Shown in pieces: positions 60,079-62,169 of a stretch of DNA of 64,000 bases. Both the position numbers and the translations under genes were made by a program. Position 1 is the first letter of the stretch. Each line of letters opens with the position of its first letter. The DNA comes from Jannaschia donghaensis (GTDB taxonomy: Bacteria; Pseudomonadota; Alphaproteobacteria; Rhodobacterales; Rhodobacteraceae). The stretch spans positions 1,282 through 65,281 of the forward strand of contig NZ_CXSU01000011.1 of assembly GCF_001403795.1 (NCBI RefSeq), given 5' to 3'. Below the pieces are notes generated by a model, which searched no databases, was not told the origin of the DNA, and saw only the letters and a program-made list of their open reading frames with translations.

Positions 60079-61235
60079 AGGCGGGCATCGGTGTTCTGAC
60101 GCTGGCCTATGTGCTCAGCCAGTTCTACCGCGCGTTCCTGGCCGTGCTGGCCCCCGATCTGACGGCGGACCTTGGCGTCGATCCGGCGACGCTGTCGCGG
60201 GCGTCCGGCATCTGGTTTCTGACCTTCGCGGCGATGCAATTGCCGATCGGCTGGGCGCTGGACCGGGTGGGGCCACGCCGGACGGCGGCCATCTTGCTGG
60301 GCGTGTGCGGCGGGGGTGGTGCCGCCTTGTTCGCGGCCGCGACCCAAGGCTGGCAAATCGACCTGGCCATGGGCCTGATCGGGGCCGGTTGCGCCCCCGT
60401 CCTGATGGCCAGCTATTTCATCTTCGCGCGGGTTTTCGACGCCCGCGTCTTCGCGACCCTGGCAGGTGTCCTGATCGGGGTCGGCAGCCTGGGCAACATC
60501 GCGGCCAGCGTCCCCTTGGGATGGGCGGCGGAGATGCTGGGCTGGCGCGGGGCGATGCAAGTGCTGGCCGCGCTGACGGGCGCGACGGCGGTGGGTTGCT
60601 GGTTTGTGGTGCGCGACCCGGAGCGGGTGGAGGGCGCGGCCCAAGGCTCTCTCCTCGATGTGCTGCGCATTCCGGCGATCTGGGCGATCCTGCCGATGCT
60701 TCTGGTCAATTATGCCCCCGCGGCGGGACTGCGCGGGCTGTGGGTCGGGCCTTATATTGCCGACGCCTATAATGCGGCCTTCGTGGGGACGGTGACGCTT
60801 GTGATGGCGGCGGCGATGATCGCGGGCAACTTCGTCTATGCGCCGGCCGATCGCATCTTCGGCACTCGCAAATGGGTGGTGATGGCGGGCAATCTGACCG
60901 GGGCCGCTATGCTGGCCGTGCTGTGGTGGACCCCTGTTCCGGGGCTTTGGACCAGCGCGTTGCTGCTGGCCGCGATCGGCGCGCTCGGCTCCAGCTATGC
61001 GCTGTGCGTTGCACATGGACGGGCGTTCTTTCCGGCGCATCTGACGGGACGCGGCGTGACGCTGCTCAATCTCTTCTCCATCGGCGGCGTGGGCATCGCG
61101 CAATTCGCGACTGGCCCGATCTTCAGCGCGGCGGGCGGCGGCATCGCGGGCTATCAGACGTTGTTCGGGGTCTTCGCACTGACGCTTCTGGCGGGCTGCG
61201 CGATCTATGCCTTCGCCCCCGACAACCTGGATTGA
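60075..61235 (+). CDS. MFS transporter
   Basis: This 386-residue carrier has about 11-12 helices. Motif A-like GWALDRVGPRRT is in the first cytoplasmic loop (about 60-72). LSQFYRAFLAVLAPDL at the N-terminus is typical of NarK/oxalate:formate-like MFS lines, but the substrate is not identifiable. It begins inside the preceding gene's stop (ATGA). Confidence 0.9.
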   Translation: MKAGIGVLTLAYVLSQFYRAFLAVLAPDLTADLGVDPATLSRASGIWFLTFAAMQLPIGWALDRVGPRRTAAILLGVCGGGGAALFAAATQGWQIDLAMGLIGAGCAPVLMASYFIFARVFDARVFATLAGVLIGVGSLGNIAASVPLGWAAEMLGWRGAMQVLAALTGATAVGCWFVVRDPERVEGAAQGSLLDVLRIPAIWAILPMLLVNYAPAAGLRGLWVGPYIADAYNAAFVGTVTLVMAAAMIAGNFVYAPADRIFGTRKWVVMAGNLTGAAMLAVLWWTPVPGLWTSALLLAAIGALGSSYALCVAHGRAFFPAHLTGRGVTLLNLFSIGGVGIAQFATGPIFSAAGGGIAGYQTLFGVFALTLLAGCAIYAFAPDNLD

Positions 61236-61258
61236 ACCGAATCGGTCATTTCGCGGTT
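61233..61258 (+). promoter_or_regulatory. TGAAC-N16-CGGTT element upstream of the Rho-N-like gene pair
   Basis: TGAAC (61233-61237), 16 bases, then CGGTT (61254-61258) lies 22 bases before the ATG at 61281. It has the same spacing and -10 half as the element before the PRC-barrel gene, but the first base differs from GGAAC. The 5' end overlaps the MFS stop. Confidence 0.25.
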
Positions 61259-61280
61259 TGCTCCCTCGAAGGAGATATCG

Positions 61281-61925
61281 ATGGCAGACGCAAAGAAGAC
61301 CGACCCCGACCTCTGGGAAGAGGTGAAGGAGGAGATGATGCAATCCGACAAGGGCGGCGATCCGGGTCAATGGTCCGCCCGCAAGGCCCAGATGGCGGTG
61401 CAGGAATACAAGAAGCGCGGCGGCGGATACGCCGACGACGGTGCCGATCAGGAAGACACCGACCTGCACGAGTGGACCCAGGAGGATTGGGGCACCAAAT
61501 CGGGCGGCGAAAGCGCCGACACCGGGGAGCGCTACCTGCCCAATAAGGTTCGCATGCTGCTGACGGAGGACGAATACGCCCGCTCCACCCAGAAGAAGAA
61601 GGATGGATCGCAGCAATTCGTCGATCAGCCCGACGATGTGAAGAAGAAGGTGGCGCACATCAAGGACAACGGCCCCACCAAGGACATGCTGATGGAGCGG
61701 GCGCAGGACCTCGACATTTCGGGGCGCAGCGACATGACCAAGGACGAGCTTCTGGACGCGATCGAGAACGCCACGGACGAGAACGGGCGCGGCAAGGGCC
61801 GCAAGGTCTCGCTGGAGCAGAAGACCAAGGACGAGTTGATGGACATGGCACAGGACCGCGACATCGAGGGTCGGTCCAAGATGGACAAGGACGCGTTGGT
61901 GGAGGCGCTGGCCGATGACGACTGA
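61281..61925 (+). CDS. DUF5872-like protein with SAP/Rho-N-like repeats
   Basis: This 214-residue, highly charged, soluble protein has an N-terminal module at about 7-52 (KGGDPGQWSARKAQMAVQEY) resembling DUF5872, a family of unknown function. The rest holds an acidic linker and two helical repeats at about 133-164 and 183-212, each with TKDxLMxxAQDxDIxGRS and then D-M-T/D-K-D-x-L. Such repeats are of the SAP/Rho-N/HeH type and bind nucleic acid in other proteins. AAGGAG lies eight bases before the ATG. It overlaps the next gene by 11 bases. Confidence 0.75.
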   Translation: MADAKKTDPDLWEEVKEEMMQSDKGGDPGQWSARKAQMAVQEYKKRGGGYADDGADQEDTDLHEWTQEDWGTKSGGESADTGERYLPNKVRMLLTEDEYARSTQKKKDGSQQFVDQPDDVKKKVAHIKDNGPTKDMLMERAQDLDISGRSDMTKDELLDAIENATDENGRGKGRKVSLEQKTKDELMDMAQDRDIEGRSKMDKDALVEALADDD

Positions 61926-62169
61926 TCTGGACGACCTCAACGTCGATGCCTTGAAGGATCTGGGTCGTGTCCAGCAGGTCGAGGGGCACAACGACATGAC
62001 GCGCGACGAACTGCTGGATGCCCTCGACGGGCCCGTGGACGACGATCTTGCGAAATGGCTCGGCAAGTCGCGGCAAGAAATCTACGACGCCGCCGGCGAT
62101 GCGGGCATTGAGGGCCGCAAGGACATGCAGAAGTCCGAATTGCTGCGGGCATTGGCGAAATCGGGCTGA
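61915..62169 (+). CDS. Small SAP/Rho-N-like repeat protein
   Basis: This 84-residue protein contains two repeats of the same kind as its neighbour. The first (about 9-38) has LKDLGRVQQVEGHNDMTRDEL, the second (about 51-81) AAGDAGIEGRKDMQKSELL. It overlaps the preceding gene by 11 bases, pointing to coupled expression. Together the two genes carry four such repeats. A nucleic-acid-binding role (for example in nucleoid or stress protection) is inference from the fold type. Confidence 0.7.
   Translation: MTTDLDDLNVDALKDLGRVQQVEGHNDMTRDELLDALDGPVDDDLAKWLGKSRQEIYDAAGDAGIEGRKDMQKSELLRALAKSG

Follow-up and report, generated by a model that had tools for sequence, protein, structure and literature searches.

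Two small overlapping genes of Jannaschia donghaensis, here called P1 and P2, on balance probably form a general-stress operon whose products would be induced by stress and act as multivalent adaptors on nucleic acid or nucleoprotein. The pair lies in a stretch of 64,000 nucleotides from contig NZ_CXSU01000011.1 (positions 1,282 to 65,281, forward strand), which we call the window and whose numbering is used throughout (Table 1). By sequence, P1 joins a DUF5872 module of phage type to HeH repeats, and P2 contributes two more repeats of this kind as an accessory. The sequence, fold and promoter of the two genes are well supported, and it is from the conservation of the promoter that we infer a general-stress operon. 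Induction under stress is likely; an association of the proteins with nucleic acid is plausible and a reasonable guess, at or a little under an even chance.

Hypothetical proteins are numerous among the listed EcfG targets, as in a Sphingomonas table of PMC6599016, and the output of the general stress response is therefore only partly known. With its candidate stress promoter, P1-P2 suggests a little-known class of stress proteins. In the open-licence PMC literature we found no paper that mentions the Rho termination factor alongside EcfG, or alongside the general stress response and alphaproteobacteria; in the same literature DUF7218 and DUF3140 are not mentioned, DUF5872 occurs in one paper only, as an entry in the gene table of an algal virus, and the sole match to Rho_N is the name of a piece of software.

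Table 1. Positions of the features discussed (window numbering unless another sequence is named)
Feature	Position	Strand	Description
EcfG-type promoter-like site TGAAC-N17-GGTT	61233..61258	+	8/9 consensus positions
P1 ribosome-binding site AAGGAG	61269..61274	+	read directly
P1	61281..61925	+	214 aa; DUF5872-type module, then two Rho_N/HeH repeats
Start of P1 with phrog_17747-like half of DUF5872 module	61281..61430	+	P1 residues 1-50; match 16-50; holds KGGDPGQWSARKAQ
phrog_14910-like half (GERYLP...)	61458..61658	+	P1 residues 60-126
HeH repeat 1	61671..61775	+	P1 residues 131-165
HeH repeat 2	61806..61916	+	P1 residues 176-212
P2	61915..62169	+	84 aa, two HeH repeats
P1/P2 overlap	61915..61925	+	11 bases
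HeH repeat 3, divergent	61915..62028	+	P2 residues 1-38
HeH repeat 4	62050..62166	+	P2 residues 46-84
DUF7218-Rho_N gene, 87 aa	C12:1519852-1520112 (L095:7853-8113)	- in L095	perfect EcfG-type site
Divergent phyR/nepR-ecfG sites	L094:4174-4205 = own genome C4:28173-28204	both	motif match

Gene organisation of P1 and P2

An earlier, sequence-only reading of this DNA had described a pair of overlapping neighbour genes, and both open reading frames are indeed present, with their shared bases. Between the window and Jannaschia marina, changes at codon positions 1, 2 and 3 number 16, 13 and 58 in P1 and 13, 11 and 43 in P2. Third-position changes thus dominate in both genes, the pattern expected of coding genes under selection. 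Neither a sigma-70-like site nor a plus-strand terminator-like site was found between positions 61150 and 62400. The scanned neighbours in the window are an ABC transporter, an MFS protein and a semialdehyde dehydrogenase.

The Rho_N/HeH repeats and their predicted fold

A profile search places all four repeats in the Rho_N/HeH group, with Rho_N as the best curated match. Pfam Rho_N (PF07498) matched P1 over two stretches at E 6.9e-12 (45.6 bits against a cut-off of 24.9) and P2, again over two stretches, at E 2.4e-5 (24.6 bits, just below the cut-off of 24.9). The SAP and HeH families were not listed in the Pfam scan of the two proteins, the sole listing of SAP/HeH type being FANC_SAP, at 19.4 bits against a cut-off of 23. 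The pattern A-x-D/G-x-x-I-x-G-R-x-x-M-x-K-x-x-L, which had been ascribed to the four repeats, is exact in both repeats of P1 and in the second of P2; it does not hold for the first repeat of P2, which deviates (V-E-G-H-N-D-M-T-R-D-E-L). Repeat number also differs among relatives, from one (Azospirillum and the alphaproteobacterial genus g611) through two (most P1 copies) to three (the P1 copies L011, L018, L021 and L023), in agreement with the repeat expansion that had been proposed. A PDB sequence search with P1 gave no match; with P2 it returned chain CTPR-rv4 (7obi, E 0.0011) over just 21 residues, which we judged to be a chance match.

AlphaFold2 models of both proteins were built with 22-23 aligned sequences. 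That of P2 is confident (pLDDT 89.6), with helices that include residues 10-19, 30-36, 53-63 and 73-83. The P1 model, with an overall pLDDT of 71.9, is confident in the repeats (10-residue means of 76-89 across residues 131-210) and loose in the DUF5872 part (means of 38-62, residues 51-90). When the P2 model was submitted to Foldseek, the Rho N-terminal domain came first and FAN1 next, with an rmsd of 1.3-1.4 in the first four rows; the E-values were weak (best 0.82) because the domain is short, at some 40 residues. Rho chains also headed the VIA-align list, at Z 3.5-4.5 and an rmsd of mostly 1.5-1.7 over 42 residues; FAN1 reached Z 3.7 and DEK 2.5. The predicted structure of P2 lies mostly within 1.1-1.7 A of the Rho N-terminal domain over about 40 residues, a superposition that runs mainly through residues 43-84 of the model and barely covers the first repeat. 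Up to E 10, the P1 model had three structural matches, and Rho accounted for two. Failure of the repeats to fold as SAP/HeH domains, the outcome named beforehand as fatal to the idea, is thus not what the models predict: the modelled repeats superpose on the helical N-terminal domain of Rho.

With Rho_N as the best curated repeat match and Rho chains at the head of the P2 fold lists, one might suppose that the proteins modulate Rho itself, their free Rho_N repeats competing with the Rho N-terminal domain for RNA or partners and so altering termination under stress. We think this improbable, since the fold also occurs in other proteins such as FAN1 and DEK, whose SAP regions have a helical fold similar to that of the P2 model at weak scores (Z 2.3-3.7). 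The repeats resemble terminator Rho in their sequence profile and in the fold predicted for them. In contrast to Rho, P1 and P2 have no Pfam match to an OB fold or a RecA-type ATPase, and each is a small acidic protein that carries two repeats; the NCBIfam Rho model scored 13 bits on P1, where 315 are needed.

A phage-type module in P1

The DUF5872-type module with its KGGDPGQWSARKAQ motif, recognised in the first reading, is present in P1 (the motif, read from the sequence, spans residues 24-37), with profile scores close to the cut-off. DUF5872 (PF19197) matched at E 5.7e-6 over profile positions 2-71 of 116, with 27.3 bits against a cut-off of 27.5, and in another scan at 29.2 bits, above that cut-off. 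The reading had no phage relative; we find that the first 128 or so residues of P1 resemble a free-standing basic phage protein. A scan of viral contigs with an alignment found that at least 598 of at least 600 pattern-matched stretches encode P1 relatives, where a single-protein scan gave no match. Among the matches listed, the 80 viral copies all fall within P1 residues 1-138, nearly all within 1-129, and identity over residues 1 to about 128 reaches 54%. Counted from the first matched residue, all 80 fetched proteins from these listed matches are about 130 aa long; they stop where the P1 repeats begin, the HeH repeats being absent from every one of them, and they carry a net charge of +17 to +30.

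Among the neighbours of the phage genes, scanned in five contigs, are holin, endolysin, virion structural and tail genes, and in one contig a terminase. P1 is like the DUF5872/phrog_17747/phrog_14910 phage proteins over residues 1 to about 128, and differs from the fetched forms in the addition of HeH repeats and an EcfG-type promoter; those forms stand alone, are basic and, where annotated, sit close to late genes. For an unrooted tree, 10 of the 80 viral copies were kept after removal of near-copies; a branch with 100/98 support splits the 23 cellular P1 copies from the 10 viral ones, and the g611 protein sits on the viral side of it.

The number of viral stretches that encode P1 relatives, and the place of the phage gene among late genes or near a terminase, could also be taken to mean that P1 is a captured phage component now turned against phage, for example as a mimic of a late virion or packaging factor. 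This seems to us highly improbable, for P1 is probably under EcfG-type control, the host and phage forms are unlike in charge, and the scanned neighbours in the window are the transport and dehydrogenase genes named above.

Roseobacter phage CRP-13 encodes each half of the module in a gene of its own; the two, gp66 and gp65 (L034:3369-3961), overlap and lie between the putative endolysin and the terminase genes. A second small phage protein adjoins the phage DUF5872-like gene in three further contigs (L155:3678-3995, L171:3702-3989 and L200:2013-2294); it is phrog_7595 in the two that were scanned and resembles part of a minor head/DNA pilot protein. DUF5872 was matched in 5 of 385 alphaproteobacterial genomes. 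One copy from another alphaproteobacterial family (G737; L096, about 1477-1764) is broken by an in-frame stop and is perhaps decaying. The KGG...GGG stretch of P1 is reminiscent of the stress-induced KGG repeat, a link we rejected: the corresponding acidophilic repeat family (PF10685) was missing from the P1 scan even with E allowed up to 10, and had no match across 40 genomes, that of J. donghaensis included.

Distribution of P1

P1 has 23 orthologues in the species-genome collection, from Roseobacter-group genera, Parvularcula, Hoeflea, metagenome bins and the gammaproteobacterium Ningiella, where the G+C content of the gene (44%) is close to that of its flanks (41-44%). Its occurrence is patchy: of the 394 genomes in the family, 8 have it. 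P2 adjoins P1 at 6 of the 23 fetched loci, all in Jannaschia or Palleronia, and among the 17 loci without it the sequence of one (L024) ends 210 bases past P1. The unit is therefore P1, and not the pair as had been proposed. At seven loci (L012, L013, L015, L017, L019, L022 and L024) a DUF3140 gene directly precedes P1, with a Pfam E of 1e-36 in the one scanned, which makes DUF3140 a candidate functional partner.

In the gene tree, Ningiella, Hoeflea and Parvularcula maris fall among the Roseobacter-group copies and those of Jannaschia are scattered, with 16 of 31 inner branches weak. This mixed placement suggests that P1 has spread by horizontal transfer. Our alignment (A1) comprised the window and 22 of the 23 fetched orthologues, L024 (Phaeobacter italicus) being left out because its reading frame is split. 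Phaeobacter inhibens DSM 17395 carries P1 on pPGA1_262. On plasmids of this species, 27 of 57 matching records call the P1 homologue aspartate-semialdehyde dehydrogenase, apparently a mislabel and perhaps one taken from the asd gene that lies 3' of P1-P2 in the window. A link with NHEJ was considered and dropped, as the J. donghaensis genome has no Ku.

A conserved EcfG-type promoter

The site upstream of P1, which does not figure in the first reading, matches the EcfG (PhyR-NepR) regulon in both promoter consensus and position. Its sole mismatch is the first base; this base belongs to the TGA that ends the upstream MFS gene and runs into the -35 box. Published forms of the consensus are GGAAC-N16-17-C/GGTT for Rubellimicrobium (PMC12148442), GGAAC-N16-CGTT, in which AAC hardly varies and the -10 box is flexible (PMC7083833), and GGAAC-N17-20-GTT (PMC6599016).

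The motif was first noticed in the upstream sequence of the same loci and scored afterwards, with boxes GGAAC and [CG]GTT, AAC fixed, a spacer of 16-18 and a distance of at most 130 bp before the first gene; the spacer range was extended from 16-17 after the Palleronia copies had been inspected. The count for spacers 16-17 covered 27 loci, and that for 16-18, like the spacer scan, 29, with L036, L037 and L041, taken to be of the same species as L010, L012 and L028, left out of the count. At least 8 of 9 positions matched at 26 of 29 P1 loci against 9 of 194 neighbouring ORFs, and perfect sites numbered 13 and 2 in the same sets, the loci being related and the counts hence not independent. Twenty-five of the P1-locus sites are placed at -45 to -75. 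With spacers 16-17 alone, sites occurred at 20 of 27 loci and 8 of 194 neighbouring ORFs, and shuffles gave a mean of 0.92 and a maximum of 5. Taken singly, spacers of 16, 17 and 18 recovered 10, 12 and 7 loci, and every other length from 10 to 25 recovered 0-2. A set of 359 permuted motifs recovered a mean of 1.4 loci, the best (20, 16 and 15) sharing the GGAAC box.

At the seven loci where DUF3140 comes first, the EcfG-type site precedes DUF3140. Two Phaeobacter plasmid copies of P1 have a perfect site further out, at -112 and -120, and L038 has none within 130 bp, its perfect site lying at -222, ahead of a truncated DUF3140 frame. There is no site of at least 8/9 at the Ningiella gene, and none within 700 bp of P1 in the metagenome bin L029.

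General-stress regulators

The genome of J. donghaensis holds phyR, nepR, ecfG and a HisKA_2/HWE kinase together, and between phyR and nepR-ecfG lie two divergent perfect GGAAC-N16-CGTT sites, one per strand and largely overlapping. NepR was found in 183 of 394 genomes of the family: in 7 of the 8 that bear P1 against 176 of the 386 others (Fisher, one-sided p 0.02), and not in the L038 genome. These regulator genes and the conserved EcfG-type promoter lend support to the stress role that had been suggested for P1-P2. Set against this, PMC5830050 assigns PhyR of Rhodobacter sphaeroides a membrane-stress role and no major one in general stress.

A second Rho_N family and other DUF5872-HeH genes

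Apart from P1 and P2, Rho_N matched three proteins in the J. donghaensis genome: a 472-aa frame that reads by eye as Rho itself, a DUF7218-Rho_N protein, and one at E 0.8. DUF7218-Rho_N has an HeH repeat and an EcfG-type promoter in common with P1, and differs in its N-terminal module and in having a single repeat. It is present in 24 of 149 family genomes searched. Once start codons had been set by alignment for all 24 copies, 18 (J. donghaensis included) had a perfect site upstream and 21 a site of at least 8/9, 20 of these 21 at -40 to -75; three had no site of that quality. NepR occurs in 23 of the 24 genomes with the gene against 7 of 20 listed misses (of 125 misses), and in G025, G035, G048 and G063 the gene lies about 5-11 kb from nepR.

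DUF5872 is joined to one HeH repeat in g611 (5 genomes), in two genera of another class and in Azospirillum. All five g611 genes have an EcfG-type site, four of them perfect, at -55 to -58; the genera of another class reach just 7 and 6 of the 9 motif positions, and the Azospirillum gene (L204) just 6. DUF5872 genes of other alphaproteobacterial families score 5/9 (L096) and 6/9 (L099), and L097 has 8/9 at -113.

Were the motif a coincidence of GC-rich upstream regions, the genes would not be under stress control, and the pattern is indeed not enriched across the J. donghaensis genome (58 sites, against 85 for the reversed pattern), with some DUF5872 genes lacking a site. We give this very little credence, however, because the site is specific in position and spacing, recurs in a further genus as well as upstream of a second family of Rho_N genes, and is lacking in three copies carried by other bacterial classes.

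Charge and a proposed role in the stress response

P1 (net charge -19, pI 4.57, GRAVY -1.32) and P2 (net charge -9, pI 4.34) are both acidic, which speaks against simple electrostatic binding of nucleic acid. LEM-type HeH domains bind a protein partner, and the repeats of P1 and P2 might likewise bind proteins, or these acidic, hydrophilic proteins might be hydrophilin-like protectants, stress-induced in either case and not nucleic-acid binding; the looseness of the P1 model over residues 51-90 fits this as well. We consider it unlikely, if worth keeping in mind. Relatives with the same kind of architecture are basic, among them those of g611 (+14 to +21), those of the two genera from another class (+15 and +16) and the P1 copy L029 (+11); the stress-acidophilic KGG family is without a match; and the Lys/Arg residues of the repeats are fixed while most acidic positions drift. 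At K134, R140, K154, K183, R198 and K203, at least 95% of the 23 alignment rows have a basic residue, while most acidic repeat columns vary. From the alignment, the basic residues may be a contact site kept on a surface that has turned acidic.

As nucleic-acid or nucleoprotein adaptors, the proteins would work as follows. Under stress, PhyR would free EcfG from NepR, and RNA polymerase with EcfG would transcribe P1-P2 from the promoter-like site. Each HeH repeat would offer a small contact of SAP/Rho type through its conserved Lys/Arg residues, and the DUF5872 module, which is part of a basic protein in phages and in seven relatives other than P1, may provide a second; in the few lineages with P2, this protein would supply further contacts.

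More broadly, small HeH (Rho_N) proteins may be a recurring, unnamed class of alphaproteobacterial general-stress effectors under EcfG, with interchangeable modules (DUF5872, DUF7218; DUF3140 as an operon partner), DUF5872 being a phage late protein fused by the hosts; we hold this to be an even call. Such short, promoter-linked proteins could show directly whether the stress response acts on the nucleoid or on RNA, and would show a phage late-region module reused by hosts as a stress protein. The basic and acidic versions amount to a natural experiment on charge, and within P1 itself the copies L030 and L031 have a net charge of +2 and +4.
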